Shown one piece after another: positions 35,631-57,721 of a stretch of DNA of 64,000 nt. The notes under the pieces are model-generated. The model saw only the letters and a program-made list of their open reading frames with translations. It had not been told where the DNA came from and did not search any database. The translations under genes and the position numbers were made by a program. Each line of letters begins with the position of its first letter. Position 1 is the stretch's first letter. This DNA comes from Flavobacterium nitrogenifigens (lineage in GTDB: Bacteria > Bacteroidota > Bacteroidia > Flavobacteriales > Flavobacteriaceae): positions 1-64,000 of the forward strand of contig NZ_QJRI01000166.1 in the NCBI RefSeq assembly GCF_003254565.1, read 5' to 3'.

Positions 35631-36476
35631 TTACAAATTCAGTTTTCTATATTGTAAAGGCGAAAGTTGTTTTAATTCCTTAAACTTTCGATTAAAATTG
35701 GAAATATTATTGAAACCACATAATTCGGCAATTTCCAAAACAGAGAGTTCTTCATTATTAGATAATAATTTTGCCGCTCTTTCAATACGTACTTCAATTA
35801 GAAATTGAAAAAAAGACTTGTTGGTCCGGACTTTAAAATACCGGCAAAAGGCATTTTTCGTCATACTGGCAATCGAAGCAATTTCATCAAGCGTGATATT
35901 TTTGTGGAAATTGGTCATTACATATTCAAAAACAATCTGCATTCTTTTTCCTTCGTTATCTGTTATTTTCTTTTGATATAAATAATTAGAAAGCGGAGTA
36001 GTTTCTGATGTAGAGAGCCATTTTAAAATATCCAGAAATAATATAAAACGCGTATAGCTGTCAGCTTTTTTTAGTTTCTTAAAATACTTGACTACTTTTT
36101 TGGGCGCGTTATGAATTATGAATCCGTTTTTACTGCTTTCTAGAATGGGATGGATATTTCTAAAAGTAGGCAACTCAAAAAAATCTCTTCCGAACGAATT
36201 GAATGTAAAGAATAAAGTACGCATTACAGAAATTACATTTTCTTGAATGTCGCTTCTAAAAACATGTGGCAAATTGCTTCCAATTACGAGTATATCGCCT
36301 TCATGATATTGAGAAATAGTATCACCGGCAAAAACGGCTCCTTCTCCTTTTTCTATAAAACTAATTTGAATTTCTTCATGCTGATGCAGTTTATCATAGA
36401 ATGATACTTCGATATCTTCTTGATATATAAGGGGATCTTCTCCAGATTTTGGAATTTTAAATGGGAAAACTTTCAT
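35631..36476 (-). CDS. AraC-family transcriptional regulator
   Basis: The 281-aa product has an N-terminal cupin-like sensor region (about 25-110, LHQHEEIQISFIEKGEGAVF and HEGDILVIGSNLPHVF). The two AraC helix-turn-helix motifs are in about 185-281 (TLDEIASIASMTKNAFCRYF and VLEIAELCGFNNISNFNRKF, ending SPLQYRKL). It is transcribed divergently from the hydroxyproline genes. That position, together with the candidate operator between them, makes it the likely regulator of the pathway. The ligand could be hydroxyproline or a pathway intermediate. It could also control the peptide-uptake genes, if those motif copies are real sites. Confidence 0.92.
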   Translation of the reverse strand: MKVFPFKIPKSGEDPLIYQEDIEVSFYDKLHQHEEIQISFIEKGEGAVFAGDTISQYHEGDILVIGSNLPHVFRSDIQENVISVMRTLFFTFNSFGRDFFELPTFRNIHPILESSKNGFIIHNAPKKVVKYFKKLKKADSYTRFILFLDILKWLSTSETTPLSNYLYQKKITDNEGKRMQIVFEYVMTNFHKNITLDEIASIASMTKNAFCRYFKVRTNKSFFQFLIEVRIERAAKLLSNNEELSVLEIAELCGFNNISNFNRKFKELKQLSPLQYRKLNL

Positions 36477-36498
36477 ATAGTGGTTAGTTAGTTATGAT

Positions 36499-36506
36499 CA
36501 AATATA
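36499..36506 (-). promoter_or_regulatory. -7 element of the AraC regulator gene
   Basis: On the minus strand TATATTTG matches TAnnTTTG, 23 bp upstream of the ATG. Confidence 0.5.
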
Positions 36507-36567
36507 TTGTATTTGAATAAAAAAATGATGCTATAATGTTCAGTTTTTTAAAATTTACCACTATAGA

Positions 36568-36583
36568 GGGTAATATAGTATCA
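36568..36583 (+). promoter_or_regulatory. Candidate operator GGGTAATATAGTATCA
   Basis: The site lies in the gap between the divergent AraC and hydroxyproline genes, 43 bp upstream of the -7 element of the latter. A half-like GTGGTAATTTTTAAAGGG follows at 36588. The location suits an activator site. The same sequence is at 12934. Confidence 0.55.
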
Positions 36584-36625
36584 TTTTGTGGTAATTTTTA
36601 AAGGGTGCGCTCTGTTGTTTCTAGA

Positions 36626-36633
36626 TAATTTTG
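36626..36633 (+). promoter_or_regulatory. -7 element of the hydroxyproline operon
   Basis: TAATTTTG matches TAnnTTTG, 23 bp before the ATG at 36656. There is no good -33 element at the usual spacing, consistent with an activator-dependent promoter. Confidence 0.5.
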
Positions 36634-36655
36634 GCCTTAATAAAAAAATAAAATT

Positions 36656-37570
36656 ATGAGTATTCAATGGAATGGCGTTATGCCAGCGGTAACTACAAAA
36701 TTTACTGCAGATGACAAATTAGACTTCAATATGTTTGAAGTTAATATGAAGGCACAATTAAATGCTGGAGTTTCAGGAATTATTTTAGGAGGGACTTTAG
36801 GTGAAGCCAGTACACTTTTAGAAGAAGAAAAAAGAGAATTAGTAAAACATACTGTTTCACTAACAGAAAATAAAGTGCCTGTAATTATGAATATTGCAGA
36901 GCAGTCTACAAAAAATGCAATTTTGGCCGCTAATAAAGCTGAACAAGATGGAGCAAAAGGATTAATGATGCTTCCTCCAATGCGTTACAAAGCGTCTGAT
37001 TTTGAAACGGTTACTTTTTATAGTGAAGTGGCAAAAAACACTTCTCTTCCTATTATGGTTTACAACAATCCAGTTGACTATAAAATTGAAGTTACTCTAG
37101 ATATGTTTGAAGAATTATTAAAATACGATAACATTCAAGCAGTAAAAGAATCAACTAGAGATATCTCTAACATAACTAGAATGATCAACCGTTTTGGAGA
37201 TCGTTTAAAAATATTATCAGGAGTAGATACATTAGCATTAGAAAGCTTATTTATGGGTTCTGATGGATGGGTTTCTGGATTGGTTTGCGCTTTCCCAGAA
37301 GAAACAGTGGCAATTTACAAATTGGCAAAAGCAGGAAGATTTGATGAAGCGTTGAAAATCTACAGATGGTTCTTACCTTTATTAGAATTGGATATTAATG
37401 CATTTTTAGTTCAGAATATCAAATTGGCAGAAGTTGCAACAGGAATTGGTTCAGAATATGTTCGTGCGCCAAGATTACCATTGCAAGGAGCAGAAAGAGA
37501 AAGAGTTTTAGCGATTATCGCTGAAGGATTGCGCACAAGACCAACTTTACCAGATTATAAAAATTTATAA
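36656..37570 (+). CDS. DHDPS/NAL-family lyase, probable 1-pyrroline-4-hydroxy-2-carboxylate deaminase
   Basis: The 304-aa product is a class I aldolase-fold protein: GGTLGEASTLLEEEKRELVK near residue 41, PIMVYNNPVDY near 125 and the Schiff-base lysine in QAVKEST (K164). The family includes dihydrodipicolinate synthase and N-acetylneuraminate lyase. The flanking hydroxyproline genes point to the deaminase that converts 1-pyrroline-4-hydroxy-2-carboxylate to 2-oxoglutarate semialdehyde with loss of ammonia. It is the first gene after the AraC-controlled intergenic region. Family membership is clear; the precise reaction rests on context. Confidence 0.85.
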   Translation: MSIQWNGVMPAVTTKFTADDKLDFNMFEVNMKAQLNAGVSGIILGGTLGEASTLLEEEKRELVKHTVSLTENKVPVIMNIAEQSTKNAILAANKAEQDGAKGLMMLPPMRYKASDFETVTFYSEVAKNTSLPIMVYNNPVDYKIEVTLDMFEELLKYDNIQAVKESTRDISNITRMINRFGDRLKILSGVDTLALESLFMGSDGWVSGLVCAFPEETVAIYKLAKAGRFDEALKIYRWFLPLLELDINAFLVQNIKLAEVATGIGSEYVRAPRLPLQGAERERVLAIIAEGLRTRPTLPDYKNL

Positions 37571-37601
37571 TAGCATATTTAAAAGATTGGCTTTGCTTTT
37601 T

Positions 37602-37740
37602 TAGTTTTCAGTCTCGGTTCTCAGCTTTCAGTCGCAGTCTCAGTTTTTCAGTTTCCATTTACAGTCAGGGTTTTCGGTTACTGTGTTTACTGGGGCTGCG
37701 ACTGAAACTTGAGACTAAAACCGTGGCTGAAAACTAAAAT
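37602..37740. repeat. Low-complexity inverted repeat
   Basis: TTTTAGTTTTCAGTCTCGG at the left is mirrored by GGCTGAAAACTAAAATGG at the right. CAGTCGCAGTCTCAG in the left half is mirrored by GCTGCGACTGAAACTTGAGA. The element fills the 199-bp gap between the lyase and aldehyde dehydrogenase genes and contains no gene. Confidence 0.7.
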
Positions 37741-37769
37741 GGCATTTAATTCATTTATAAGAAAAAAAC

Positions 37770-39353
37770 ATGATTACAGGAAAAAATTATATAGGAAGCC
37801 AGCTAAAAGCAGGCGGTACAAAAATACTAAAAACGTTTAATCCGCTATTGAATACAGAAAATCCATGGGTTTTTACAGAGGCAACTCAAGATGAAATTGA
37901 AGAAGCGGTTGCGCTAGCCAATCAAGCATTTGCGAGTTATAAAAATTATTCTGGTATTGAAAAAGCTAAATTTTTAAACGCTATTGCTGATGAAATTTTA
38001 GCATTAGGAGATGATCTTTTAGTTCAATATTGTACAGAATCGGGTTACCCGAGAGGTAGAGCAGAAGGAGAACGCGGAAGAACAATTGGCCAATTGAAAG
38101 CTTTTGCCGATATGCTTACAGAAGGAAGCTGGGTGCAAGCTACAATAGATACAGCAATAATTGACAGACAGCCTGCGCCAAAAGAAGACTTACGCAAAAT
38201 GTTAACACCTCTAGGGCCAATTGTGGTTTTTGGATCAAGTAACTTTCCTTTTGCATTCTCTACAAGCGGAGGAGATACAGCTTCAGCTTTGGCTGCAGGT
38301 TGTCCAGTTATTGTAAAAAGCCACTCTATGCATATAGGAACAGGCGAAATGGTCGCTTCTGCAATCATAAAAGCGGCTCAGAAAACCAATATGCCAGAAG
38401 GTGTTTTTTCTAACCTTATCGGTGATGGAAGAACGCTTGGAACAAGTTTGGTAAAACATCCATTGGTAAAAGGAGTAGGCTTTACCGGAAGCATTAAAGG
38501 CGGCCGCGCTTTGTGTGATTTAGCTGCACAGCGCCCAGAACCAATTCCGGTATTTGCCGAAATGGGAAGTATAAATCCAGTGGTATTATTGCCTAATGCT
38601 TTGAAAAAAAATAGCCAAAAATGGGCAACGGCTTATGCAGGTTCTATTACTTTGGGAGCAGGGCAATTTTGCACGAATCCAGGGTTATTGCTTGCTTTGA
38701 AAGGAGAAGAATTAAATGATTTTACTGAAAAGTTGGATCAGGCAATCGAAACAATTCAACCTGGCTGTATGCTTCATCCTTCTATTTATGCTGATTTTAA
38801 TAACGGAATTGCAAAAATAGAAGAGCAGAATGGAGTTTCAAGAATAGCGCAATTTAAAGGAGAGACAACACCAAATCACGGTGCTTCAACTGTTTTAAAA
38901 GTTGATGGGAAAGAATTTTTAAAAAATGCAGTATTGCACAATGAAGTTTTTGGACCATTTTCTATTTTAATTGAATGCGAAAATGAAGCCGAATTAATAG
39001 AGGTAATTTCTAAGCTAGAAGGACAGCTGACAGGAACAATCATAAGTGAGGAGAACGAAATTGAATCTCATAAAGGAATAATTGGAGCTTTACAAAATCG
39101 CGTAGGTCGTTTGATCTATAATGGTGTGCCAACAGGTGTAGAAGTTTGTGCTTCAATGCTTCATGGCGGACCTTATCCTGCATCTTCAGATTCACGCTAC
39201 ACAGCAGTTGGTATAGATGCAGTGTATAGATGGGTGCGACCAGTAAGTTTTCAGAATTGGCCAGATCATTTGCTGCCAGCTGAATTACAAAACGAGAATC
39301 CGCTGCAAATTGTTCGTACAGTAAATAATAAACTAACACTATCTCAAATATAA
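37770..39353 (+). CDS. 2-oxoglutarate semialdehyde dehydrogenase-type aldehyde dehydrogenase
   Basis: The 527-aa product is an aldehyde dehydrogenase with VFGSSNFPFAFSTSGGDTAS (cofactor and substrate region, about 152-171), the general-base motif FAEMGSINP (E264) and the nucleophile GAGQFCTNPG (C301). Its length and the CTNPG motif fit the semialdehyde dehydrogenases of hydroxyproline and sugar-acid pathways. It would oxidise the deaminase product to 2-oxoglutarate with NAD(P). The next gene starts one base after its stop. Confidence 0.88.
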   Translation: MITGKNYIGSQLKAGGTKILKTFNPLLNTENPWVFTEATQDEIEEAVALANQAFASYKNYSGIEKAKFLNAIADEILALGDDLLVQYCTESGYPRGRAEGERGRTIGQLKAFADMLTEGSWVQATIDTAIIDRQPAPKEDLRKMLTPLGPIVVFGSSNFPFAFSTSGGDTASALAAGCPVIVKSHSMHIGTGEMVASAIIKAAQKTNMPEGVFSNLIGDGRTLGTSLVKHPLVKGVGFTGSIKGGRALCDLAAQRPEPIPVFAEMGSINPVVLLPNALKKNSQKWATAYAGSITLGAGQFCTNPGLLLALKGEELNDFTEKLDQAIETIQPGCMLHPSIYADFNNGIAKIEEQNGVSRIAQFKGETTPNHGASTVLKVDGKEFLKNAVLHNEVFGPFSILIECENEAELIEVISKLEGQLTGTIISEENEIESHKGIIGALQNRVGRLIYNGVPTGVEVCASMLHGGPYPASSDSRYTAVGIDAVYRWVRPVSFQNWPDHLLPAELQNENPLQIVRTVNNKLTLSQI

Positions 39354-39354
39354 A

Positions 39355-40365
39355 ATGGTAAAGAAAACTTTTTTTTGCGTAGATGCTCATACGTGCGGGA
39401 ATCCAGTTAGGGTTGTTGCCGGTGGCGGACCAAATCTACAAGGCAATTCGATGAGCGAAAAACGGCAGCATTTCTTAAAAGAATATGACTGGATTCGTAA
39501 AGGATTAATGTTTGAACCAAGAGGGCACGATATGATGAGCGGAAGCATTTTGTATCCGCCAAATAATCCTGATAATGATTTTGGAATTTTGTTTATTGAA
39601 ACTTCTGGCTGTCTGCCAATGTGCGGACACGGAACAATTGGAACTATTACAATTGCTGTCGAAGAAGGTTTGGTGACTCCAAAAGTTCCCGGAATTATCA
39701 AAATGGAAGCGCCTGCAGGTTTAGTGCATATCGAATATCAACAAACAGGCAAAAAGGTAGATTGGGTACGTCTGACCAACGTAAAATCTTATCTAGCTGC
39801 AGAAGGACTTACTATTGATTGTCCAGAATTGGGCGAAATTGTTTTTGATGTGGCTTACGGAGGAAATTACTATGCCATTGTCGATCCGCAAAAGAATTTT
39901 TCTGGTGTTCAAGATTTTACAGCAAGTAAAATTGTTCAGTATAGCCAAGAAGTGCGCAAAAAGATTAACGAAAAATATCCAGATTATTTCATTCATCCAG
40001 AAAATGATACAATTCGAGATGTATCACATATGTTATGGACAGGATCGCCTATAGATCCAACATCATCTGGTAGAAATGCGGTTTTTTATGGCGACAAAGC
40101 AATCGACCGTTCACCTTGTGGAACAGGAACATCAGCCCGAATAGCACAATTGCATGCTAAAGGGAAATTGAAAAAAGGAGAAGAGTTTATTCACGAAAGT
40201 TATATTGGAAGTAAGTTTATTGGAAAAGTCGTCGAAGAAACTTCTATCGGAGATATTCCAGCTATTGTTCCAAGCATTCAAGGATGGGCAAAAGTATACG
40301 GATATAATAATATTATAATTAATGAAAGTGACGATCCATATGCATTTGGATTTCAAGTTATTTAA
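39355..40365 (+). CDS. 4-hydroxyproline 2-epimerase
   Basis: The 336-aa product belongs to the proline racemase family. Both catalytic cysteines are seen: LPMCGHGTIG (C90) and DRSPCGTGTS (C255). A two-Cys pair indicates a racemase or epimerase rather than the Cys/Thr dehydratases. The start CVDAHTCGNPVRVVAGGGPN is typical of hydroxyproline epimerases. It would convert trans-4-hydroxy-L-proline to cis-4-hydroxy-D-proline, the first step of the pathway. It is translationally close to the dehydrogenase (1 bp gap). Proline racemase activity is possible but less likely, given the neighbours. Confidence 0.92.
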   Translation: MVKKTFFCVDAHTCGNPVRVVAGGGPNLQGNSMSEKRQHFLKEYDWIRKGLMFEPRGHDMMSGSILYPPNNPDNDFGILFIETSGCLPMCGHGTIGTITIAVEEGLVTPKVPGIIKMEAPAGLVHIEYQQTGKKVDWVRLTNVKSYLAAEGLTIDCPELGEIVFDVAYGGNYYAIVDPQKNFSGVQDFTASKIVQYSQEVRKKINEKYPDYFIHPENDTIRDVSHMLWTGSPIDPTSSGRNAVFYGDKAIDRSPCGTGTSARIAQLHAKGKLKKGEEFIHESYIGSKFIGKVVEETSIGDIPAIVPSIQGWAKVYGYNNIIINESDDPYAFGFQVI

Positions 40366-40453
40366 AAATCAGTTTATAATATAATTAAGCTGTTGGTTAA
40401 ATTAAATTATTGTTTTTTGAATAGTCTCTAGTTTTAACTAAGGGATTTTAGAA

Positions 40454-40606: not shown

Positions 40607-40686
40607 ACATAGCCCGTGCTTTCAACCACGAGTTTATATAGATTGTTTTTTGATTACATACCCGTGGTTGAAACCACGGGCTATGT
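40607..40686. repeat. Long REP-like hairpin
   Basis: ACATAGCCCGTG CTTTCAACCACG on the left is mirrored by CGTGGTTGAAACCACGGG CTATGT on the right, and the right arm is itself palindromic. A relative (ACATAGCCAATGGTTTCAAC) is at 54824. The rest of the 454-bp gap (40366-40819) shows no gene. Confidence 0.8.
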
Positions 40687-40819: not shown

Positions 40820-42055
40820 ATGAAAAAAGTTGCTGTTATCGGCGGTGGAATTATTGGCTTATGTTCTGCCTATTATCTTGCAAAGGAAGGTTACGAGGTG
40901 AGTGTATTTGATGAATCTGATATGAACAATGGCTGTTCGTACGGAAACGCAGGTATGATTGTACCATCGCACATTATTCCGCTGGCACAGCCGGGTATGA
41001 TTGCTCAAGGAATAAAATGGATGTTTGACAGCCGTAGTCCATTTTATGTAAAACCACGTTTAAGTAAAGATTTAATAAACTGGGGAATGCAGTTTTACAA
41101 GCATGCCAATTTGCGCCATGTAGAAAATGCAATGCCCGCTTTAAGAGATCTTTCTTTATTAAGTAAAGAATTATATCAGGATTTTGCCAAAGAGAATAAT
41201 TCTTTTTTTTATGAAGAAAAAGGGCTTTTAATGCTTTATAAAAGTGATAAAGTAGGAGAAGAAATGCATCACGAAGGAAAAGAAGCAGAACGTCTAGGGC
41301 TTGAAGTAGATTATCTCTCAAAATCTGAAGTGGCACTTTTAGAAAAAGGAACCAATACAAATGTAATTGGAGGAGTTCATTATAAAAGCGATGCACATTT
41401 GTATCCTCAAAAATTTATGGCTTTTATAAAACAAGAATTGTCTCGTTTAAAAGTCGAAATTCACTCACAAACCAGCGTTAAAGATTTTGTTTTAGAAGGA
41501 AATAAAATTGAAAAAATTGTTACCGATAAAGGGCTTTTTAGAACTGACGAAGTGGTTTTGGCATCAGGATCTTGGAGTCCTTTTTTGGCTAAAAAGTTAA
41601 ATATCTCAATTTCTATTTTACCAGGAAAAGGATACAGTTTTACTTTAAAAGATAAATCCCAAAAACCTAGTATTCCGTCTATTTTATGTGAAGGAAAAGT
41701 AGCTGTAACTCCAATGGCAAATGATATTAGATTTGGAGGAACTATGGAGATTACTCACACCAAAGACAATAAAATAAACGCAAACAGGCTTCAAGGAATT
41801 ATAAATAGCATTAATGATTTCTATCCAGATATGAAAGTGGAGATGCCAAAAACCGAAGATACTTGGTTTGGCTTTAGACCATGTACGCCATCGGGAATGC
41901 CAATTATTGCTAGAGACAAAAAAATCGTAAATTTGACCTTAGCAACAGGACATGCCATGATGGGATTAAGTCTCGCACCGGCAACAGGAAAAATTATAAC
42001 AGAAATTATTTCTGGCAAACCGACTTCTGTAGCTATTGACAGATTCCAAATATAA
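40820..42055 (+). CDS. FAD-dependent D-amino acid dehydrogenase, probable D-hydroxyproline dehydrogenase
   Basis: The 411-aa product is a DadA/glycine-oxidase-like flavoprotein. It has the FAD-binding VAVIGGGIIGLCSAYYLAKE at residues 4-23, SYGNAGMIVPSHI, LASGSWSP near 251 and the C-terminal LATGHAMMGLSLAPATGKI. No signal peptide or obvious transmembrane helix is present. In this setting it would oxidise cis-4-hydroxy-D-proline to 1-pyrroline-4-hydroxy-2-carboxylate, the step between the epimerase and the deaminase. It is separated from the epimerase by 454 bp of repeats and followed 3 bp later by aminopeptidase P. The substrate assignment is from context. Confidence 0.87.
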   Translation: MKKVAVIGGGIIGLCSAYYLAKEGYEVSVFDESDMNNGCSYGNAGMIVPSHIIPLAQPGMIAQGIKWMFDSRSPFYVKPRLSKDLINWGMQFYKHANLRHVENAMPALRDLSLLSKELYQDFAKENNSFFYEEKGLLMLYKSDKVGEEMHHEGKEAERLGLEVDYLSKSEVALLEKGTNTNVIGGVHYKSDAHLYPQKFMAFIKQELSRLKVEIHSQTSVKDFVLEGNKIEKIVTDKGLFRTDEVVLASGSWSPFLAKKLNISISILPGKGYSFTLKDKSQKPSIPSILCEGKVAVTPMANDIRFGGTMEITHTKDNKINANRLQGIINSINDFYPDMKVEMPKTEDTWFGFRPCTPSGMPIIARDKKIVNLTLATGHAMMGLSLAPATGKIITEIISGKPTSVAIDRFQI

Positions 42056-42058
42056 AAT

Positions 42059-43360
42059 ATGAGATACAATGCGATTCCGGTTTCTTTATTTATAGAAAAC
42101 CGAAAAAGATTTACCCAAAAAATGAAGCCAAATAGTTTGGCTATTCTGACTTCAAACGACGTAATGCCCAATAACGCAGATGATGTTATGGGCTTTTCGC
42201 AAAACAATGATTTGTTTTATTTGTCAGGAATTGATCAAGATGAGACCATTTTGGTGTTATTTCCAGATGCTTTTAAAGAAGAAAACAAGATCATACTTTT
42301 TGTAAAAGAAGCAAATGAACATACACTTCTTTGGGATGGTAATTTTTTGACTAAAGAACAAGCAACAGCTATTTCCGGAATCCAGAATATCAAATGGCTT
42401 CACGAATTTGAAAAGACTTTACAGCTTTTTGCTTTTGAAGCTGACATTATCTATTTAGGTCACAATGAGCATATCAAAAGGGTAACTTCTGAAATGGAAA
42501 CCAGACAAGACCGAATGATTAAATGGTGCAACGAAAAATATCCATTGCATCAATACGATCGTGCTGCAAAAATAACGCGCGAATTGCGTCCAATTAAATC
42601 AAACGAAGAGGTTGATTTAATTAAAAAAGCAACAGCACTTAGCGTTGAAGGTTTTCATAGAATTTTAGGCGCAATACGTCCGAATATAAAAGAATACGAA
42701 TTAGAAGCTGAATTGCTGTACGCCACTGTAAAAAACGGAGGGACGAGACAAGCATTTAGATCAATTGTTGCATCTGGCGTAAATGCCTGCTCATTGCATT
42801 ATAATACCAATGATGATATTTGTAGAGAGAATGAAATGGTTCTTGTTGATTTTGGAAGCTGTTATGCCAACTATAACTCAGATACCACAAGATGTATTCC
42901 GGTTAACGGAACTTTCAGTCCGAGACAAAAAGAGGTTTACGAATCTGTTTTGCATTGTCTAAAAGAAGGCTCAAAATTATTGAAGCCTGGAGTTTTGTCG
43001 AAAGATTATGAACTTCAAATGGCAAAATTAATTGAAGCTGAATTGGTAAAACTGGGACTTATTACAGAAGAAGAAATTAAATCTCAAGATCCAGAAAAAC
43101 CTGCTTACAAGAAATATTTCATGCATGGAACTGCGCATCATTTAGGACTTGATGTTCATGATGTTGGTTTGTATTCAAGACCTTTTGAAAAGGGAATGGT
43201 GCTTACTTGCGAACCCGGAATTTACATTAGAGAAGAAGGAATAGGATGCCGTTTAGAAAATGATTATTTGATAACGGAAAATGGAAACATTAATTTAAGT
43301 GAAGCCATGCCTATAGAAATCGGCGAAATTGAAAATTTAATTAAAAATAAAAAAGGATAA
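42059..43360 (+). CDS. Xaa-Pro aminopeptidase (aminopeptidase P, M24B)
   Basis: The 433-aa product has an aminopeptidase P N-terminal domain (about 1-150, VMGFSQNNDLFYLSGIDQDE) and a pita-bread catalytic domain (about 180-425). Metal ligands lie in LVDFGSCYANYNSDTTR, HGTAHHLGLDVHDVG, TCEPGIYI and RLENDYL. It lacks a signal peptide, so it acts in the cytoplasm, cleaving N-terminal residues from Xaa-Pro and probably Xaa-Hyp peptides. It is coupled to the flavoenzyme (3 bp upstream) and to DPP IV (1 bp downstream). That coupling ties peptide breakdown to hydroxyproline catabolism. Confidence 0.95.
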   Translation: MRYNAIPVSLFIENRKRFTQKMKPNSLAILTSNDVMPNNADDVMGFSQNNDLFYLSGIDQDETILVLFPDAFKEENKIILFVKEANEHTLLWDGNFLTKEQATAISGIQNIKWLHEFEKTLQLFAFEADIIYLGHNEHIKRVTSEMETRQDRMIKWCNEKYPLHQYDRAAKITRELRPIKSNEEVDLIKKATALSVEGFHRILGAIRPNIKEYELEAELLYATVKNGGTRQAFRSIVASGVNACSLHYNTNDDICRENEMVLVDFGSCYANYNSDTTRCIPVNGTFSPRQKEVYESVLHCLKEGSKLLKPGVLSKDYELQMAKLIEAELVKLGLITEEEIKSQDPEKPAYKKYFMHGTAHHLGLDVHDVGLYSRPFEKGMVLTCEPGIYIREEGIGCRLENDYLITENGNINLSEAMPIEIGEIENLIKNKKG

Positions 43361-43361
43361 G

Positions 43362-48984: not shown

Positions 48985-50442
48985 ATGAAAATTATAAAAA
49001 CAATATTTTTTGCAGGAGCTGTTTTATGTGCAGTAGCTTCATGTGATAACTTGGATGACATGAATAAGAATGAAAAAGCTTATGAAACGGCCCTTCCAAG
49101 TGCCTTGATGACTAGTGCACAAGTGAATTATGCTTACTTTCTAACGAATGCTTCAGTAAATTCAAATAATTTCAGAGCTTATGCGCAACATTGGTCAACA
49201 GCAACTTATACAGATGAGGCTAATTATAATCAGGCAAAAAGAAATTTAGGAAGCTCACATGCTGTACTATTATATCGTGACGTGCTTCAAGATTTAATAA
49301 ATGCACAAAATCAGATTCAAAATACGAAAGTGTTAGGGCCAATTGAAGAAGGTGTAAAGAAAAACCAGCTTGCTATTTTAGAAGTGCAGATCATAATGGC
49401 TTATCAAACTCTGGTAGATTTGTTTGGTAACGTTGCCTATTCACAGGCTTTTGATATTAAAAAATTTCCACTTCCTAAGTATGATGATGCTAAAACAATC
49501 TATTTTGATTTAGCTTCTCGTTTGGATGTTGCCATTGCAGCTTTAGATGACGAAAATGAAAGTTTTGGAGGTGCTGATCTGATTTTTAACGGAAACGTAG
49601 CAAAATGGAAAATATTGGCTAACAGCGTAAAGCTTAAAATGGGATTGCATCTAGCTGATGTTGATGCTGCAAAAGCAAAAGCAATGGTGGAGAGTGCTTT
49701 TAACTCAGGAGTGATGAGTAAAGAAACTGATACTGCATTGTTTCAGTATTTTTCTTCAAATGTAGATATGAATCCGCTATACGATAGTTTAGTAAGTGAG
49801 AATCAGATCAATATTGCAGAGTTTTTTGTTAATGAGTTAAACGGAAAAGAAGATCCTAGACGTGATTTTTTCTTTAATCCAGAATCAAAAATAAATGGCG
49901 AATATAAAGGTGCACCTTATGCACAACAGGTTACTTACGCCAATTATACTAATACAGGTAAAAGATTAAGAGAAAAAACAAACCCTGGCGTAATATTCGA
50001 TTATACTGAAACTTGTTTTTTATTGGCCGATGCGGCAAGCCGAGGCTTTAATGTAGGTGCTGATGCTGCAACATATTATGCAAAAGGAATAGAAGCAAGC
50101 ATGAAATTTTGGGGAGTTGCAAGCGCTGATATTCAAACTTACTTAGCACGCACTGATGTGGCTTTTGCAACTGCAACAGGAACAGACAAACAGAAAATTG
50201 CATACCAACTTTGGATAGCATACTACAATCGTGGTTTTGAAGCGTGGACAGAGTATAGAAGACTAGATTATCCAATACTTGTGGCACCTCCAACAGCTGT
50301 GCAAGAAGCTGATGGTAAAGTTCCAGTTAGAAACATTTATTCTACATCTGATAAGACACTGAATGCCGCTAATTATGAAGCAGCTTCAACAGCAATTGGA
50401 GGAGATTTAATGACAACAAAGATTTTTTGGGACAAATTTTAA
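48985..50442 (+). CDS. SusD/RagB-like lipoprotein (SusD-like_2 type)
   Basis: The 485-aa product has a lipobox VASC (Cys20). LDDMNKNEKAYETALPSALM, NNFRAYAQHWSTATYTDEAN and the C-terminal YNRGFEAWTEYRRLDYPILV match the SusD-like_2 branch, which differs from the two glycan-type SusD proteins in this window. It follows SusC after 13 bp. This branch often accompanies peptidase genes, which agrees with the context. The terminator at 50472 closes the pair. Confidence 0.92.
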   Translation: MKIIKTIFFAGAVLCAVASCDNLDDMNKNEKAYETALPSALMTSAQVNYAYFLTNASVNSNNFRAYAQHWSTATYTDEANYNQAKRNLGSSHAVLLYRDVLQDLINAQNQIQNTKVLGPIEEGVKKNQLAILEVQIIMAYQTLVDLFGNVAYSQAFDIKKFPLPKYDDAKTIYFDLASRLDVAIAALDDENESFGGADLIFNGNVAKWKILANSVKLKMGLHLADVDAAKAKAMVESAFNSGVMSKETDTALFQYFSSNVDMNPLYDSLVSENQINIAEFFVNELNGKEDPRRDFFFNPESKINGEYKGAPYAQQVTYANYTNTGKRLREKTNPGVIFDYTETCFLLADAASRGFNVGADAATYYAKGIEASMKFWGVASADIQTYLARTDVAFATATGTDKQKIAYQLWIAYYNRGFEAWTEYRRLDYPILVAPPTAVQEADGKVPVRNIYSTSDKTLNAANYEAASTAIGGDLMTTKIFWDKF

Positions 50443-50498: not shown

Positions 50499-50707
50499 AT
50501 TTTTCCAGTATTTGCAAGGGTCGACTGATATTTATGATTCATTTTGTAAGGTTTGTTTTTAATATTTTATTATGATTATTTTTTTATTATATGTTTTTTT
50601 AAGGTTAAAAATATGATAATTATGTATTATTTCTGAATAAAATACTATCAAAAAGATAGAAGCTTGTGCGGTAACTTTGATTGTTACTAATTAAAAAACC
50701 TAAACAA

Positions 50708-53700
50708 ATGAAATTAAAATTACTAATCTGCTTTCTGATTTTCAGTTCATTGAAAGTTAGCGCACAAGGTTTGCCTTGTCGGACAAGCGAAGAAAATGAA
50801 AAAGTGTACCGGAATAATCCACACGCACTTCAAGAGAAAAAGAACTTTGATGTTTTTAGTAAAAATTTTGCAGCACAGCGTAAATCTTCAACGGCAAAAG
50901 CGGCTGCAGTTACTTACACAATTCCAGTAGTATTTCATATTTATGGTGATGTGCAAGGCGGAAAAACGGTTACATACGAGAAGATTGTAAACCACTTAGC
51001 TCAGCTTAATGATGATTTTAATGGACGTAATGCAGATTATCAAACTGTTGAATCATTTTTTCAAGCACGCCGCGGAACGCTGAATATTGAATTTAAGCTT
51101 GCGAAAAAAGATCCTAATGGTGGTTGTACGACAGGTGTTGTTTTTCATCCAACTAAAAACGGTTACGGAAACGGTGGAGGCTACGATGACCAGATTGCAG
51201 CTGATGCTTGGGACAACACCAAATATATGAATGTCTATATACAGAATGATTTGTATAATGATGGCGCTACGAATAATTCAGGTGTGGCTTGGTATCCAAG
51301 TTCAGACATGACAGCAAACAATACAGCTCGTGTTGTTTTTAACGGAGCTTATTTATATGATAACTCCTATAGTAAAGAATTCTCAGCAACGCTTACTCAC
51401 GAATTCGGGCACTTTCTTAATCTGATTCATACTTTTGAAGGAGGTTGTACAGGAACTGATGAAGTTGCTGATACTCCTGCGGAAGACGGAAAGCATACTT
51501 TAGGATGTACTCCTGGAACAAATTGCAGTGGCGATAAAGTAAATTTTGAAAATTACATGGGATACAATGGAGCACAAGGGTGCTACAAAATGTATACACA
51601 AGGTCAGATTGATAGAATGTTGGCGGCTCTGGAACACCCTGCGAGAAAATCGCTGTGGCAAGCACAAAACTTAATTGATACAGGTGTAAATTCTACAGGA
51701 AGTACACTTACTGCTTCGGCTGTAGCTTTTAAAGAAGCGATTGTAAATGACGGTTCTTTTGATACTTCATCCATAATCAAATTAAACGGAACTAAAACTT
51801 TTGCGGTTTCTTCTGGAACAATGACAGCAGGAACTCATTTTACACATACTTTTCCAGCAGGAATTACACCTGTCCTTACTGTAAACTCCAACAATCAAAT
51901 TACAGTTACATTAACTGGGAAAGCAACAAATCATGCATTAAGCAACAATGCATCGGGTGGAATTAGTTTTTTGCCAGCAGCTTTTGCAGGCGGAACAGCT
52001 GATTTATCTTGTACTTCTTTATACTTTAATTTTAAATTCTCAGACCCATACGGAATCTTCTTTGTTGACATGCCAGATGTTACGGTTTCGTCAGCATTGA
52101 CATGGAAATATTTTGAAATCGCAAAAGGAGATGATCGTGCATTTGGAGGCTGGCGTTATGCAGCGAATGCTTTAAAAATTGAAACGTATGCAAAGAAACT
52201 AGTTTGCGAAACGGGTACTAGAAATATTTCATTATTGAATGCAAACACAGCAGTTGGTCCAACAAGCAATATGACTGCTCCAGGTGCTTATCCAAATCAG
52301 TTAGATTTAAGAACAGCGAGTTACACGGCTTGGGATGGAAAAACTGGTTATGTAGGATTTGATTATTTAATGGATGGTCTTACCTGTTATGGATGGTTTA
52401 AAGTAAAAGTAAACGCTGATGGTGATGGATATACAATTTTGGAGTATGCTTATAATACAAAACCGAACACTCCAATTTATACAGGAATGACCGATAAAAC
52501 GGCAACAACTTTATCACCAGAAACATTGTATGAAGCTGAAGTAAATGATGGAAGTGTAACTTCAACGGCAATAATTGCTTTGAGCACTAATAATGGCACA
52601 TTTACAAAAAGCAGTGGCACTTTTACAGCAGGAACCGATTATACAATTACAGGCGTACCTGCTGGTTTAACTGCAGTTTTAACTCTTGAAAGCAATTCTA
52701 AAACGGTACTTTCTTTTACAGGAAAAGCAACTGCACACAATACAACAAACGATGCTGTTATTACAGTTACGTTTAAAGATGCTGCCATTACAGGCGGAAT
52801 ATCGACTTTGGATACCGCTACTAAAACAATCAATTTAAAATTCGATGCGCCTTATGGAGTATTTTATGTAAACAATCCAGATTATACGGCCAATGCAGCA
52901 TCAACTTGGCAGTATTTTGATATGGGTATTGGAGACAATACGGAGTATGGAGCATGGCAATATGCGGCGGCAGCTTTAAAAATAGAAACTTACGGAAAAA
53001 GACTGGTTTCTGAAGCGGGAACAAGAAATATATCTTTCTTATCACAAGGTACTTCTATTGGAGCTTCTAGTAATTTTGCCGCACCTGGAGCATATCCAAA
53101 TCAATTAGATTTGAGAACAGCTACTTATACAAATTGGGATAATAAAACAGGATATGTTGGTTTTGAATATACAAGCAGAGGACGTGTTTGCTACGGATGG
53201 ATGCATGTAAAAGTAGAAGGTGGCGGAGTAGGGTATACTGTGTTGGATTATGCTTATAACACCAAACCAAATGAACCAATTTTAGCAGGTGTACAAACAA
53301 CAAATACAGTATTGGCTCCAACAAATTTAACAGCAACGGTGACTAATTTACAAGCTGTGCTTAACTGGACTAATAATGCTACAAATGCTACAAATGTAAT
53401 TATCGAAAGAGCAGGTTCAGATGATGTTTATGCTGAAATTGCGACACTAGCTAACAATGTAGCTACTTATACTAATACAGGTTTAACTGCGGACAGCACT
53501 TATAAATATAGAGCTAGAGCAAAATCAGGGGCTGATTATTCTGCTTATTCAAATGTGGCTACTGTGACAATTCCTGCGGCTCCATTATGCAGTGCGCAAG
53601 GAACAAACGGTTACGAATTTATAAGTTCTGTTGCAGTAGGAAGTTTTGTAAATGCATCAGGAAAAGAAACAAACGGTTATGCAGATTATACTTCAAAAGT

Positions 53701-54553
53701 GATTACTTTAAATCCGAATGCAAATACAAGCGTTACTTTAACTCCAGGTTTTAGTGGTTCTGCCTACACAGAATATTGGGGAGTTTGGATTGACTACAAT
53801 AAAAACAATCAGTTTGAAGCATCTGAAAGAGTAATTAATAATGTTTCATCAAACGCTGCAGTAATTACAAGTTTTACACCTGCATCATTTACAGGTACTA
53901 CTAAAATGAGAGTTGTAATGAAGTATAATGCCAATCCGTCTTCAACTTGTGGAAATCTAGGAGATGGTGAAATCGAAGATTATACGGTTCAAGCAGGAAC
54001 TTCTGTTCCACCAAATCCTGCAACATTGACAATTCCTGCTAATCTTGGAAATGCAGGAGTGTATTCATCAGGATTTTATGCTTCTTGGGCAACATCTACA
54101 GATGCTGCATCTTATGAAGTGCAATTGAATACTTCATCAGGATGGACATCTGCAGGAACTTCTACAACATATTATTTATGGATTCCGAAACAAGGAACTC
54201 AAACCGTATATGAATTTAGAGTAAGAGCAATAAATGGAACGGCTTTTAGCGAATGGAGCGCTTCTCATACAATTGATCTACAATCTGGAAGTGCTGGTTT
54301 GCCAGGCATAAATACAAATACTGCAAAAGCATTTACAATGTATCCAAACCCAGCTTCAGATGTTGTAAACTTTACTTTTGAAAACATTGATATCAATAAA
54401 GTTAAAGTGTCAATTTATAACAGCACAGGTCACTTGGTAGATACGTTACATAATACAACCGTTTATTCTCTTAAATATTTAAATAAAGGAGTTTATATTG
54501 TTGTGGCTACAGATGGAAAATTTGTAGAAAAGAAAAAATTATTGGTTGAGTAA
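50708..54553 (+). CDS. Secreted M43 (pappalysin-type) metalloprotease with repeats, GEVED domain and T9SS sorting domain
   Basis: The start chosen is the ATG at 50708, giving about 1281 aa with a signal peptide ending VSAQG. The zinc site THEFGHFLNLIHTFEGGC (H231, E232, H235, H241) and a downstream CYKMYTQGQIDRM Met-turn region are M43-type. Two homologous blocks of about 265 aa follow (about 330-595 and 600-865), each with NDGS, FTGKAT, YGKRLV or YAKKLV and GAYPNQLDLRTA. Then come an Fn3-like domain (APTNLTATVTNLQAVLNWTN), a GEVED domain (YWGVWIDYNKNNQFEASERV, ending DGEIEDYTV), a second Fn3-like domain and a type IX secretion C-terminal domain (MYPNPASDVVNF to the end). It probably starts extracellular breakdown of the protein whose peptides enter through the preceding SusCD. 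Confidence 0.92.
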   Translation: MKLKLLICFLIFSSLKVSAQGLPCRTSEENEKVYRNNPHALQEKKNFDVFSKNFAAQRKSSTAKAAAVTYTIPVVFHIYGDVQGGKTVTYEKIVNHLAQLNDDFNGRNADYQTVESFFQARRGTLNIEFKLAKKDPNGGCTTGVVFHPTKNGYGNGGGYDDQIAADAWDNTKYMNVYIQNDLYNDGATNNSGVAWYPSSDMTANNTARVVFNGAYLYDNSYSKEFSATLTHEFGHFLNLIHTFEGGCTGTDEVADTPAEDGKHTLGCTPGTNCSGDKVNFENYMGYNGAQGCYKMYTQGQIDRMLAALEHPARKSLWQAQNLIDTGVNSTGSTLTASAVAFKEAIVNDGSFDTSSIIKLNGTKTFAVSSGTMTAGTHFTHTFPAGITPVLTVNSNNQITVTLTGKATNHALSNNASGGISFLPAAFAGGTADLSCTSLYFNFKFSDPYGIFFVDMPDVTVSSALTWKYFEIAKGDDRAFGGWRYAANALKIETYAKKLVCETGTRNISLLNANTAVGPTSNMTAPGAYPNQLDLRTASYTAWDGKTGYVGFDYLMDGLTCYGWFKVKVNADGDGYTILEYAYNTKPNTPIYTGMTDKTATTLSPETLYEAEVNDGSVTSTAIIALSTNNGTFTKSSGTFTAGTDYTITGVPAGLTAVLTLESNSKTVLSFTGKATAHNTTNDAVITVTFKDAAITGGISTLDTATKTINLKFDAPYGVFYVNNPDYTANAASTWQYFDMGIGDNTEYGAWQYAAAALKIETYGKRLVSEAGTRNISFLSQGTSIGASSNFAAPGAYPNQLDLRTATYTNWDNKTGYVGFEYTSRGRVCYGWMHVKVEGGGVGYTVLDYAYNTKPNEPILAGVQTTNTVLAPTNLTATVTNLQAVLNWTNNATNATNVIIERAGSDDVYAEIATLANNVATYTNTGLTADSTYKYRARAKSGADYSAYSNVATVTIPAAPLCSAQGTNGYEFISSVAVGSFVNASGKETNGYADYTSKVITLNPNANTSVTLTPGFSGSAYTEYWGVWIDYNKNNQFEASERVINNVSSNAAVITSFTPASFTGTTKMRVVMKYNANPSSTCGNLGDGEIEDYTVQAGTSVPPNPATLTIPANLGNAGVYSSGFYASWATSTDAASYEVQLNTSSGWTSAGTSTTYYLWIPKQGTQTVYEFRVRAINGTAFSEWSASHTIDLQSGSAGLPGINTNTAKAFTMYPNPASDVVNFTFENIDINKVKVSIYNSTGHLVDTLHNTTVYSLKYLNKGVYIVVATDGKFVEKKKLLVE

Positions 54554-54578
54554 TAAGTTAATTTAGTTAAAAATGAAA

Positions 54579-54612
54579 AAGGGCTGTCTACGAAAATGGG
54601 CAGCCTTATTTT
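54579..54612 (+). terminator. Terminator after the metalloprotease
   Basis: AAGGGCTGTC and GGGCAGCCTT pair with one mismatch around ACGAAAAT, followed by ATTTTTTTT. Confidence 0.75.
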
Positions 54613-54639
54613 TTTTAATTCTATTGACGTAGAAATATT

Positions 54640-54955: not shown

Positions 54956-54962
54956 TAATAAA

Positions 54963-54994
54963 AAAAGAGCCATCTTAATAGATGGCTCTTTTGA
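54963..54994 (-). terminator. Terminator of the minus-strand M24 gene
   Basis: AAAAGAGCCATC pairs with GATGGCTCTTTT around TTAATA. The A run on the left gives a T run for minus-strand transcripts. Confidence 0.8.
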
Positions 54995-55021
54995 AAATAT
55001 TAAATCAAAATTATTTAAAGC

Positions 55022-56233
55022 TTATAAACCAAACGGATTATCAATGCTCTGCATTGGTTCTGTAAACCATTTTGGACCTTCAGCCGTCATATAAAAATGA
55101 TCTTCATGGCGAATACCAAATTGACCCGGCATACAGATCATAGGCTCATTACTAACTACCATTCCTTCTTTTAAAATAGTTTGATTGCCTCTTACTAAAT
55201 AAGGATATTCATGAATATCTAAACCTGTTCCATGACCCACTCGGTGTGGCAATCCTGGAATTTCATAATCTCCGCTTAAACCAGCTTCTGTCAAAACTTT
55301 ACGAGCGGCATCATCTACAGAACCACATGTTGCTCCAATTTGAGCGGCATCAAAAGCTGCTTTTTGAGTTGCTTTTTCAAGATTCCATATTTTTCTGTGC
55401 TCGTCACTTGGAGTTCCATATACATAAGTTCTGGTAATATCAGATAAATAGCCTTCTAAGCGACATCCTGTATCAATCAAAACAACATCATTATTAACTA
55501 AATTTTGAGGAGCAGTAACTCCATGCGGATACTGAGAATCTTCTCCGAAAAGAACAATACAGAAATAAGAACCAGATGGAATACCAGCCTTAATATGTGC
55601 TCTATGAATGAAATCTACAACTGTACTTACTGGAATGCCTGGATATAATATACTAGCAGCTGCTTTTTGAACCACCATAGTAATATCTTTCGCTTTTTGA
55701 ATAATAGCAATTTCATTCGCCGATTTATGCATTCTGCACCCTGCTGTTATTGGCTGAGCATTTACAAAACTAAAGTTTGAATTCGCTTTTGAGATCGCGT
55801 CAATTAGAAAAAAAGCAGCCGATTCATCCAAGGCAATAGTACCATCAGTGATATTTTTACTTTTTAGAATATTGCCAAATAATTCAGAAGGACTCTCGTG
55901 TTCTTCCCAAAAGTTTAAATTTCCTTCAATTTTCATGAAAGTCTTAAAAGTTCCTTCTTCAAATTTTGGAACAATATATTCAACCGTTTCATCTTCAAGA
56001 ATTATGGCGCCAACCATACGCTCAGACGGATTCCATTTTGTTCCTGTAAAATAATACAGATTTGTTCCAGCATTTACATAAAGCGCTTTGCAATTTTGTT
56101 CTTTCATTAAAGAAACTGCTTTTTTGATACGCTGTTTGTATTCTAGAAGCGCTATTGGCACGACATCAAGTGTCATGTTTTGTATTTTTCCTAATTCGAT
56201 ATCTATAGTTGATCCGCCAACTCCAATTGCCAT
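55022..56233 (-). CDS. Xaa-Pro peptidase (M24)
   Basis: The 403-aa product has a creatinase/prolidase-type N-terminal domain (about 25-165, LYYFTGTKWNPSERMVGAII) and an M24 catalytic domain. Metal ligands are in VLIDTGCRLEGYLSDITRTY, RVGHGTGLDIHEYPYL, SNEPMICMPG and GIRHEDHF. It has no signal peptide, so it acts in the cytoplasm. It is a second M24 peptidase in the locus and diverges from the S37 gene. It may act on Xaa-Pro dipeptides (prolidase) or longer peptides, complementing the 42059 enzyme. Confidence 0.92.
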   Translation of the reverse strand: MAIGVGGSTIDIELGKIQNMTLDVVPIALLEYKQRIKKAVSLMKEQNCKALYVNAGTNLYYFTGTKWNPSERMVGAIILEDETVEYIVPKFEEGTFKTFMKIEGNLNFWEEHESPSELFGNILKSKNITDGTIALDESAAFFLIDAISKANSNFSFVNAQPITAGCRMHKSANEIAIIQKAKDITMVVQKAAASILYPGIPVSTVVDFIHRAHIKAGIPSGSYFCIVLFGEDSQYPHGVTAPQNLVNNDVVLIDTGCRLEGYLSDITRTYVYGTPSDEHRKIWNLEKATQKAAFDAAQIGATCGSVDDAARKVLTEAGLSGDYEIPGLPHRVGHGTGLDIHEYPYLVRGNQTILKEGMVVSNEPMICMPGQFGIRHEDHFYMTAEGPKWFTEPMQSIDNPFGL

Positions 56234-56370
56234 TTTTTATTTTTTAGGTTAGTATTTAATTATAGTGTAAATTATAAAATTGACGCAAAGTTCAATTTTT
56301 CAATAAAATTAAAGGATTATTTTTATTTTGTCCTATGTTGATGCAAACTAGATAAAATATTACATTTTAA

Positions 56371-56387
56371 GGGTAATATAATATCAG
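56371..56387 (+). promoter_or_regulatory. Candidate operator GGGTAATATAATATCAG
   Basis: The motif lies between the divergent M24 and S37 peptidase genes, 54 bp before the S37 ATG. It differs by one base from the site at 12934. Confidence 0.5.
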
Positions 56388-56440
56388 TTTTTGCTGGATA
56401 TTGCACTTACTTTTAAAATTTTAAAATAACAAGATTAAAA

Positions 56441-57721
56441 ATGAATCGAAAATCCTTTATTATTACGCTGTTCTTTCTTTTCCTGAACATTTTTGCAGTT
56501 TCTGCACAGGAATCTTCAGCAAATCTACAGCAAAAATTGACTGAATTATTCCCAAAAGCTATCATAACGCGAATTGATAATTTAGAAAACTATACCGAAT
56601 CGTATCAAATAATTTTAGACGAGCCTCTAGATCACAAACACCCAGAAAAAGGAACTTTTCAGCATTATATTTATCTGTCGCATTTAGGTTATGACAGACC
56701 AACCGTAATTGAGACTCATGGTTACAATACAGAAAATATAAAAAGTGAAGTCAGCAGTTTGCTACAGGCCAATCAGGTTGCGGTTGAATATCGTTTTTAC
56801 GGAAAATCAAGACCAAACCCGATTCAATGGGAATATCTGACCAATGATCAGGCGATTGAAGATTATCATAACATTGTTACTAAACTGAAAAAAATATATT
56901 CAGGAAAATGGATTTCAACAGGAATCAGCAAAGGAGGAGAAACATCCCTAATTTATAAATTAATCTATCCAAACGATATTGATGTGGCAATGCCGTATGT
57001 TGCTCCGTTAATTAATACTTGCGAAGATCCGAGAACTATAACTCACACCAGAACAGTTGGAACGGAAGAATGCAGAGCAAAAATAACAGCTTTCCAAAGA
57101 GCTGTTCTGCAAAATAGAGAAGCTGTCTTAGAGGTTTTTAAAGAGTATTCAGCTGAGAAAAAGATGCAATTTACAGAAGTTCCATTCGCGGAAGCATTGG
57201 AATATGCTGTTTTAGAATTTCCTTTTTCGTTTTGGCAATGGGGAGGAAAATGCGATGAAATTCCGCCAGTAAACGCCTCTGCAAAAGAGCTTTTCGATTA
57301 TTTGAATAAAATTGTTGGAGTAGGAACTTACAATGATAAAATGTCGTTTGTGTATTTGCCTTCTTATTACCAGCATTTAAGCGAATTGGGGTATTATGGT
57401 TTTGATCTTGAACCGGTTGCCGATTTGTTGACTATTGTAAAAAGCAGTTCTAATGCGCGATTTGCGCCTAAAGATGTTGTGATAAAATATAATCCAAAAT
57501 ACATTAAAAAAGTGCGCAAATATGTTGAGAATAAAGGAGATAAAATTTTATATATCTACGGAGGTTATGATACTTGGTTCTCATGTTCTCCAACACCAAA
57601 GTCAAGTGTTGATGCACTAAAAATGGTACTTCCGCAAGGAAGCCATTCAACCAGAGTAAAACATTTTTCTGCGGAAGACCAGAAATTGATTATGGACACA
57701 TTGAAAAAGTGGCTTAATTAA
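56441..57721 (+). CDS. Secreted S37 (PS-10-like) tripeptidyl aminopeptidase
   Basis: The 426-aa product has a signal peptide (to about residue 23, AVSAQ). IILDEPLDHKHPEKGTFQHY and VIETHGYNTENIKSEVSSLL are followed by AVEYRFYGKSRPNPIQWEYL and the nucleophile elbow STGISKGGETSLIY (Ser163). GGYDTWFSCSPTP and the terminal GSHSTRVKHF (His) follow. This pattern matches peptidase family S37, whose members remove N-terminal tripeptides, often with Pro at P1. It probably supplies short Pro/Hyp peptides in the periplasm. S28 prolyl carboxypeptidase is the nearest alternative fold. Confidence 0.88.
   Translation: MNRKSFIITLFFLFLNIFAVSAQESSANLQQKLTELFPKAIITRIDNLENYTESYQIILDEPLDHKHPEKGTFQHYIYLSHLGYDRPTVIETHGYNTENIKSEVSSLLQANQVAVEYRFYGKSRPNPIQWEYLTNDQAIEDYHNIVTKLKKIYSGKWISTGISKGGETSLIYKLIYPNDIDVAMPYVAPLINTCEDPRTITHTRTVGTEECRAKITAFQRAVLQNREAVLEVFKEYSAEKKMQFTEVPFAEALEYAVLEFPFSFWQWGGKCDEIPPVNASAKELFDYLNKIVGVGTYNDKMSFVYLPSYYQHLSELGYYGFDLEPVADLLTIVKSSSNARFAPKDVVIKYNPKYIKKVRKYVENKGDKILYIYGGYDTWFSCSPTPKSSVDALKMVLPQGSHSTRVKHFSAEDQKLIMDTLKKWLN

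Follow-up and report, generated by a model that had tools for sequence, protein, structure and literature searches.

Introduction

Among the described systems that come closest to the hydroxyproline (Hyp) and peptide locus that we report here from Flavobacterium nitrogenifigens is the F. collinsii cluster TRV642_0198-0209 (PMC10132118), in which, as in our locus, five peptidases of families S9, S37, M24 and M43 accompany a SusC (0202) and an IPR041662 SusD (0201). Our locus occupies positions 35631-57721 of a 64,000-nucleotide stretch, hereafter the window (NCBI RefSeq assembly GCF_003254565.1, contig NZ_QJRI01000166.1, positions 1 to 64,000), which belongs to a contig of 113,637 bases; the genome measures 5.44 Mb. 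It comprises twelve genes, from an AraC-type regulator to an S37 peptidase, and the F. collinsii cluster spans 12 locus tags, the same count. From the fit of the gene content and of the twelve tags, we infer that the two are the same locus. The F. collinsii cluster was described only as a likely oligopeptide polysaccharide utilisation locus (PUL), and hydroxyproline, collagen, gelatin and cytophagalysin are absent from the main text of that paper.

In Colwellia, a cluster of ∼21 kb around an M9 collagenase (PMC7883544) resembles the window in joining a secreted collagenase and a TonB-dependent receptor (in BB5) with a hydroxyproline dipeptidase, a 4-hydroxyproline epimerase, a D-Hyp dehydrogenase and a ketoglutaric acid dehydrogenase. 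It differs in belonging to the Gammaproteobacteria, in carrying a major facilitator superfamily (MFS) transporter, in having no SusD mentioned in its description, and in its protease, that of the window being an M43 and not an M9 enzyme. The M43 protease of the window resembles cytophagalysin CPL1 of Cytophaga sp. L43-1, a 1282-residue protein comprising a prosegment, an M43 domain, eight immunoglobulin-like domains and a tail like those of the type IX secretion system (T9SS), the two sharing length, catalytic domain, fibronectin type III domain, T9SS-like tail and nearly all landmark residues (PMC11674741). The described counterparts of the SusCD pair are BT_2263-2264 and RagAB, both cited as oligopeptide importers (PMC10132118), and the SusC of the window is nearest to BT_2264. 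In F. psychrophilum a collagenase and a SusCD pair have been proposed to act jointly on collagen peptides, as we suggest for the window; there, however, the genes form a co-expression cluster, and hydroxyproline is absent from the main text of that report (PMC9723704).

A literature search, which barely covered subscription journals, gave among the matches listed no report joining SusCD or glycoside hydrolase family GH127 to hydroxyproline catabolism in Bacteroidota. We know of no coupling of either BT_2263-2264 or RagAB to hydroxyproline catabolism. A first-pass annotation of the window, made from the sequence alone, had called the coupling of SusCD to hydroxyproline catabolism little described; as far as these sources go, the F. 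collinsii, F. psychrophilum and Colwellia precedents make that too sweeping, and what looks new here is the hydroxyproline link in Bacteroidota, together with the modularity described below.

Results

Our analysis indicates that the twelve genes probably constitute a locus for the utilisation of collagen or gelatin peptides. All twelve, from AraC to S37, are in place as first annotated, each matching its named family, and together they have the make-up of a PUL, with a SusCD pair, processing enzymes and a regulator of their own, peptidases replacing the glycosidases.

The catabolic core lies on the plus strand, divergent from the AraC-type regulator (35631-36476, minus strand; HTH_18 1.9e-19 and a weak cupin/AraC_binding domain). 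It consists of a dihydrodipicolinate synthase (DHDPS)-family lyase (36656-37570; PF00701 3e-57), an aldehyde dehydrogenase (ALDH; 37770-39353; PF00171 1.8e-47), a 4-hydroxyproline epimerase (39355-40365; Pro_racemase 1.7e-125) and a DadA-like FAD enzyme (40820-42055; DAO 3e-64), all four enzyme families of the route from trans-4-Hyp to 2-oxoglutarate thus being adjacent. The two-Cys epimerase of the first-pass annotation is borne out: the catalytic pair is Cys90 (MCGH) and Cys255 (DRSPCGTG), and the protein scores 587.6 bits on model NF010578 (cut-off 376). Its substrate sites were mapped by alignment on solved structure 6j7c, which we take to be the T. litoralis proline racemase (ProR), and read Ser62, His225 and Tyr245, the hydroxyproline-epimerase type. 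The numbering of 6j7c agrees with that of PMC4364671, where site 1 is Phe in the racemase, the His of site 4 is specific to hydroxyproline epimerase (HypE) and site 5 is Cys or Tyr in HypE. The curated model and the diagnostic residues together support the identification as a 4-hydroxyproline epimerase, with predicted activity on trans-4-hydroxy-L-proline. The protein is 99% identical to the epimerases of Flavobacterium sp. LHD-85 and F. sharifuzzamanii. The likely roles of the other three enzymes, as deaminase of Δ1-pyrroline-4-hydroxy-2-carboxylate (Pyr4H2C), 2-oxoglutarate semialdehyde dehydrogenase and D-hydroxyproline dehydrogenase, are read from genomic context, and the four-enzyme pathway first proposed therefore holds on the evidence of model and residues for the epimerase and on that of context for the rest.

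The comparisons that follow draw on 170 epimerase loci: 37 from the order, drawn from 36 genomes besides that of the window (the order-level set), 80 named loci, and 53 from the wider phylum; G-numbers denote genomes and L-numbers loci of these sets, and the identity cut-offs used to label neighbours were of our own choosing. Named loci extend 10 kb either side, so that distant modules may escape notice in them. In the order-level set the epimerase is accompanied by DHDPS and ALDH in 37/37 loci and by a DadA-like enzyme in 35/37, a grouping that on these counts exceeds chance, and a matching AraC gene is found in 31/37. In the wider phylum, at the chosen cut-offs, DHDPS occurs in 43/53, DadA in 33/53 and ALDH in 30/53. 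In some loci (L144, L143, L145 and others; 15/80 named and 8/37 order-level) the ALDH and epimerase genes are separated by one for a DUF885 protein. In a metagenome-assembled genome (MAG) labelled Limnohabitans (L140) the epimerase locus looks flavobacterial (88% identity), probably through a binning mix-up.

The secreted protease (50708-54553, plus strand) has an M43 domain (PF05572 3.9e-66), fn3 and GEVED domains and a Por_Secre_tail (2.5e-11). The ATG at 50708 is a likelier start than the TTG at 50681, and gives a protein of 1281 residues, against 1282 in CPL1, with a signal peptide recognisable by eye. Compared through landmark residues and lengths taken from the published description of CPL1, the two proteins agree at Q20, N328, Tyr286 and Cys24, 140, 247, 267, 273 and 292; both have an LNR-like loop (L131-G143), and the later cysteines at 435, 961 and 1081 correspond to 434, 963 and 1083 in CPL1, an offset of 1-2. 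From these landmarks and the domains the M43 protein is predicted to be a cytophagalysin-type gelatinase, which makes collagen or gelatin its likely substrate and narrows the "Hyp-rich protein" of the first-pass annotation, whose secreted protease beside hydroxyproline catabolism stands, to collagen and gelatin. In a survey of 296 genomes of the order, scoring at most two candidates per genome, relatives of at least 50% identity occur in 13 genomes, and all 13 hold a copy 1.4-10.4 kb from the epimerase (Fisher 2e-13). Six of these genomes belong to a second family, and the one second-family M43 that was scanned has a T9SS tail of its own.

The importer comprises a SusC-type TonB-dependent protein (45768-48971, plus strand; TIGR04056 583.9 bits, cut-off 368) and, 13 bp downstream, a SusD-like_2 lipoprotein lid (48985-50442, plus strand; PF12771 4e-128, with a lipobox-like VASC at its N-terminus). 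Both TIGR04056 and TIGR04057 are over cut-off, as for a SusC/RagA TonB-linked protein with an adjoining SusD. Among solved structures the best match of SusC is BT_2264, with 402 bits over residues 80-1067 and the next chain at 133 bits; the search matched only 11 distinct sequences, so a BT_2264-like specificity is suggested rather than proven. Six candidates per genome were scored in 121 Flavobacterium genomes, and SusC relatives of at least 59% identity were found in nine, all of which have an epimerase (background 20/121; Fisher 1.5e-8), 3.2-5.5 kb away in eight. Many Flavobacterium genomes that lack an epimerase have more distant homologues, at 44-52% identity, and the F. nitrogenifigens genome itself has such paralogues on contigs C169 and C129; the SusCD pair of the window therefore appears to be a copy, now specialised, of a more general importer.

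This distribution bears on a rival explanation, in which SusCD and the peptidases scavenge any oligopeptide and the Hyp operon is merely adjacent and separately regulated. The 44-52% homologues in epimerase-free genomes would suit it, as would the 249-bp and 265-bp gaps before SusC and before the M43 ATG, which could hold separate promoters, the placement of the second M24 gene on the opposite strand, and the reading of the F. collinsii authors, who give an oligopeptide PUL with no further specificity (PMC10132118). Yet the closer SusC relatives are confined to nine genomes that all have the epimerase, beside it in eight, every one of the 13 M43-bearing genomes has a copy near the epimerase, and the genes for DadA, Xaa-Pro aminopeptidase and DPP IV are spaced by 1-3 bp. 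We therefore consider undirected scavenging quite unlikely.

The peptidases that complete the set are the Xaa-Pro aminopeptidase, or aminopeptidase P (42059-43360, plus strand; M24 PF00557 1.1e-54 with AMP_N PF05195 4.1e-28), a DPP IV-like S9 peptidase that is probably periplasmic (43362-45518, plus strand; PF00930 2.9e-81, PF00326 8.1e-43), a prolidase-like M24 peptidase (55022-56233, minus strand; PF00557 6.6e-52, Creatinase_N 2.1e-16) and the S37 peptidase (56441-57721, plus strand; PF05576 6.2e-57), for which a sequence search found no relative among solved structures. Inspection of N-termini by eye revealed signal peptides on DPP IV, SusC, M43 and S37 and a lipobox on SusD, and none on either M24 peptidase or on the hydroxyproline enzymes. 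These peptidases would be incidental if the core served free Hyp or small Hyp compounds such as hydroxyproline betaine, and many epimerase loci of other families indeed have no peptidase or SusCD neighbour among their labelled genes. Against this, the Xaa-Pro aminopeptidase follows DadA by 3 bp and has relatives of at least 60% identity in 36/80 named and 6/37 order-level loci, and no betaine demethylase is present among the twelve genes, so we regard a small-compound substrate as highly improbable.

Genes of the trans-3-hydroxyproline type add to the picture. A second Pro_racemase-family gene of the F. nitrogenifigens genome (G000:C66:132377-133369, L106) has the catalytic pair Cys/Thr; of the models it fits trans-3-hydroxy-L-proline dehydratase best, at 368 bits and below the cut-off of 540, and it is followed on contig C66 by an ornithine-cyclodeaminase-family gene and an MFS carrier. 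The 4-Hyp locus itself includes a Cys/Thr gene with an ornithine-cyclodeaminase-family neighbour in 2/37 order-level and 4/80 named cases; in two further named loci the Cys/Thr gene is cut off by the locus end, and in 2/53 wider loci it lacks such a neighbour. Because 3-Hyp is a residue of collagen, Cys/Thr genes inside 4-Hyp loci fit a collagen diet.

The gap of 454 bp before DadA contains a REP/BIME-like inverted pair at 40610-40683 (CCCGTGGTTGAAACCACGGG), neither strand being assigned. The pattern has 13 matches genome-wide at one mismatch or fewer and none when reversed, and two more inverted pairs ∼50 bp apart lie on contigs C116 and C124. A Bacteroidete-type promoter motif matches once in the gaps of the locus, at 55033 on the minus strand, and 21 times across the window, an uninformative result.

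The window also holds glycosidases upstream of the locus, and these raise the possibility that the substrate is instead a plant Hyp-rich glycoprotein (an extensin or arabinogalactan protein), the peptidases attacking the backbone and the upstream glycosidases stripping the sugars. GH36, GH43-GH35, GH2 and GH35 genes span 13462-35127, the GH43 and GH35 catalytic domains being fused in a single protein of 1320 residues (23720-27682). The GH36 protein, which resembles alpha-galactosidases (13462-15666), is 74% identical to the GH36 of a locus in genome G261 that also has GH127, GH43, GH42 and an Svx-like protein, and a GH36 gene directly precedes AraC in 5/80 named loci (L108-L112) and in G018. 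Those same loci lack, in the interval from GH36 to AraC, the upstream PUL of the window (GH43-GH35, GH35, GH2 and SusCD; 16-35 kb); this PUL is therefore separable, and we rejected it as part of the locus and treat it as separate. Further upstream, proteins of 669 and 477 residues (4040-7539) follow a SusCD pair; neither has a Pfam domain over cut-off or an NCBIfam family, and the former has no convincing relative among solved structures. Weak GH65C and trehalase hints in their sequences suggest that they may be unknown glycosidases, and a relative of the 669-residue protein adjoins AraC in 1/80 named loci.

Loci that may suit plant glycoproteins are those of G261 (F. soyae-like), G002 and G143. 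After the core these carry an amino-acid permease, which follows DadA, and then S9, GH127, DUF885, DUF5695, GH42 (in two of the three), GH43, M24 and GH36, and upstream of their AraC gene is SusCD of a class different from that in the window. That of G261 (L045/L082) is a candidate plant-extensin locus. Pectobacterium Svx cleaves extensins (PMC13164431), and G261 encodes a related protein with a T9SS tail, of which G002 has a close relative and G143 a weaker match. Since its score with the Svx model, 211.7 bits, falls short of the cut-off of 625, we call the G261 protein Svx-like and not proven Svx. Such sequences occur in 6 of the 170 loci, all six with GH127. A third arrangement, in G158 (L039/L076), joins the core to S9, DUF885, a permease, M61, M1, SusCD and an M4-type protease with a T9SS tail, its GH127 lying ∼22 kb off.

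GH127 genes are associated with the epimerase more widely. A placement test took in 80 of the 90 epimerase-bearing genomes (G040, G197, G257, G031, G115, G207, G208, G307, G412 and G638 were excluded) and left matches below ∼90 bits uncounted; 51 of the 80 genomes exceed the family cut-off, a stop-broken 190-bit match in G353, on a contig other than the epimerase's, was dropped, and a double match in one frame in G429 was merged. It found 96 GH127 genes in 41 of the 80 genomes, 14 of them, in 12 genomes, within 15 kb of the epimerase, against 0.61 expected at random. Among the loci, GH127 is present in 3/37 order-level, 22/80 named and 7/53 wider ones, of which 3, 11 and 0, respectively, also hold SusCD.

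What separates the window from these loci is that its importer and protease were not found in their company. Window-type SusC and GH127 never share a locus, whether in the order-level set (4 vs 3 of 37), among the named loci (18 vs 22 of 80, within their 10 kb either side) or in the 53 wider loci, and neither M43 nor S37 shares one with GH127 among all 170. Window-type DPP IV (at least 60% identity) does accompany GH127 in two named loci, so that type-specificity does not extend to every peptidase, and this, with the shared GH36 and the 12 of 80 genomes in which GH127 lies close to the epimerase, speaks for plant glycoproteins. On the other side, neither GH127 nor an Svx-like sequence was found in the window, its M43 is of the gelatinase type, its SusC and M43 keep apart from GH127, and its upstream PUL is separable. 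On balance we regard plant glycoproteins as an unlikely substrate of this locus.

The GH127 proteins themselves are of more than one kind. In four loci of another family (f17; L194, L195, L196 and L198) a GH127 of ∼668 residues precedes the Hyp core by one or two genes. That of L198 scores 480 bits against the arabinofuranosidase 4qjy, 382 against the arabinofuranosidase 3wkw and, highest of all, 753 against 6ex6, a "six-hairpin glycosidase". Aceric acid hydrolase is the NCBIfam model that comes nearest to all seven GH127 proteins scanned, none of which reaches its cut-off of 950 bits; both proteins of the L195/L198 kind score 484-488 bits and the 1017-residue Flavobacterium type only 97. Aceric acid is a component of the pectic polysaccharide rhamnogalacturonan II, and some GH127 may thus serve pectin, which counts against an extensin reading of the loci that carry it.

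Discussion

Taken together, the gene set suggests a route by which F. nitrogenifigens may feed on collagen-derived peptides. The T9SS-exported M43 protease would cleave extracellular gelatin or denatured collagen, as its match to CPL1 suggests, and the BT_2264-like SusC, with SusD as its lid, would, like its relatives, import the resulting Pro/Hyp-rich oligopeptides over the outer membrane. DPP IV and S37, which bear signal peptides, would trim these in the periplasm, and a carrier of the inner membrane, presumably encoded elsewhere since none was found in the locus, would take in the products. In the cytoplasm the Xaa-Pro aminopeptidase and the prolidase-like M24 peptidase may then free Hyp and Pro, and the epimerase, D-Hyp dehydrogenase, Pyr4H2C deaminase and semialdehyde dehydrogenase would convert trans-4-hydroxy-L-proline to 2-oxoglutarate. 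The probable signal for the divergent AraC regulator is Hyp or an intermediate of the pathway.

Several observations weigh against this assignment to collagen and gelatin. Profile scans matched no inner-membrane peptide or amino-acid carrier among the twelve genes, and the "complete" locus of the first-pass annotation is for that reason too strong a description, though its protein counterpart of a PUL survives in the hydroxyproline catabolism found, by sequence and by comparison, beside a peptide-type SusCD and a secreted protease. Among the four pathway enzymes the epimerase alone is named by an NCBIfam model, DHDPS, ALDH and DadA having none above cut-off (108 bits for ALDH on NF042993, cut-off 770; 258.7 for DadA on PRK00711, cut-off 383). 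CPL1 degrades gelatin, and native type-I collagen was left uncut by the fragments tested (PMC11674741); moreover, its activation site A66-E67 is not conserved in the window protein, which reads A66-V67. The second-family M43 relatives are ∼715 residues long with fewer domains, G176 has an additional partial M43 match (59%) unlinked to the epimerase, G085 has a 34% relative in a genome lacking the epimerase, and G040, a seventh second-family genome, has the epimerase and no such M43 match. The SusD matches 5j5u at 144 bits, above BT_2263 at 84, and the SusC orthologue of G694 (65%) lies on another contig than the epimerase, beside a second SusCD pair. The GH36 shared with G261 points, as noted, towards plants, and the trans-3-hydroxyproline-type genes of the F. 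nitrogenifigens genome lie on a contig other than that of the locus. Our linkage statistics, finally, ignore relatedness.

The importer is also in the minority at the epimerase: SusC of the window type (at least 55% identity) is found there in 4/37 order-level, 18/80 named and 0/53 wider loci, and pairs of other classes in 8, 12 and 2 further loci of these sets, which likewise tells against the assignment. All 18 of the named loci with the window type are labelled Flavobacterium or MAGs of that genus. The gene order had been expected to be conserved beyond close relatives, and the outcome is divided: this type of SusCD was seen at the epimerase only within Flavobacterium, the core and the linkage of M43 extending beyond that genus.

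A broader interpretation, which we advance tentatively, is that the Hyp operon of Bacteroidota is an exchangeable core fitted with front ends that avoid one another, one directed at animal collagen and one at plant extensin. The collagen front end, as in the window, would consist of a cytophagalysin-type M43, a BT_2264-like SusCD and S37, sometimes with trans-3-Hyp genes; the plant-extensin front end, as in F. soyae-like genomes, would consist of GH127, the other SusCD class, an Svx-like protein, GH43, GH42, GH36 and a permease. We put our confidence in this interpretation a little below even, and not at even, because the model nearest to the GH127 proteins scanned is aceric acid hydrolase and not an extensin enzyme.

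For a phylum known mainly for its polysaccharide loci, the locus offers a route, open to testing, by which a structural protein of animals could enter the tricarboxylic acid cycle, and it places the cytophagalysin-type gelatinases, so far studied as enzymes, within a nutritional pathway. If the core is indeed exchangeable, gene neighbourhood would reveal whether the Hyp-rich protein on which a bacterium feeds comes from animals or from plants, and collagen feeders might be separated from plant-extensin feeders by reading their genomes.

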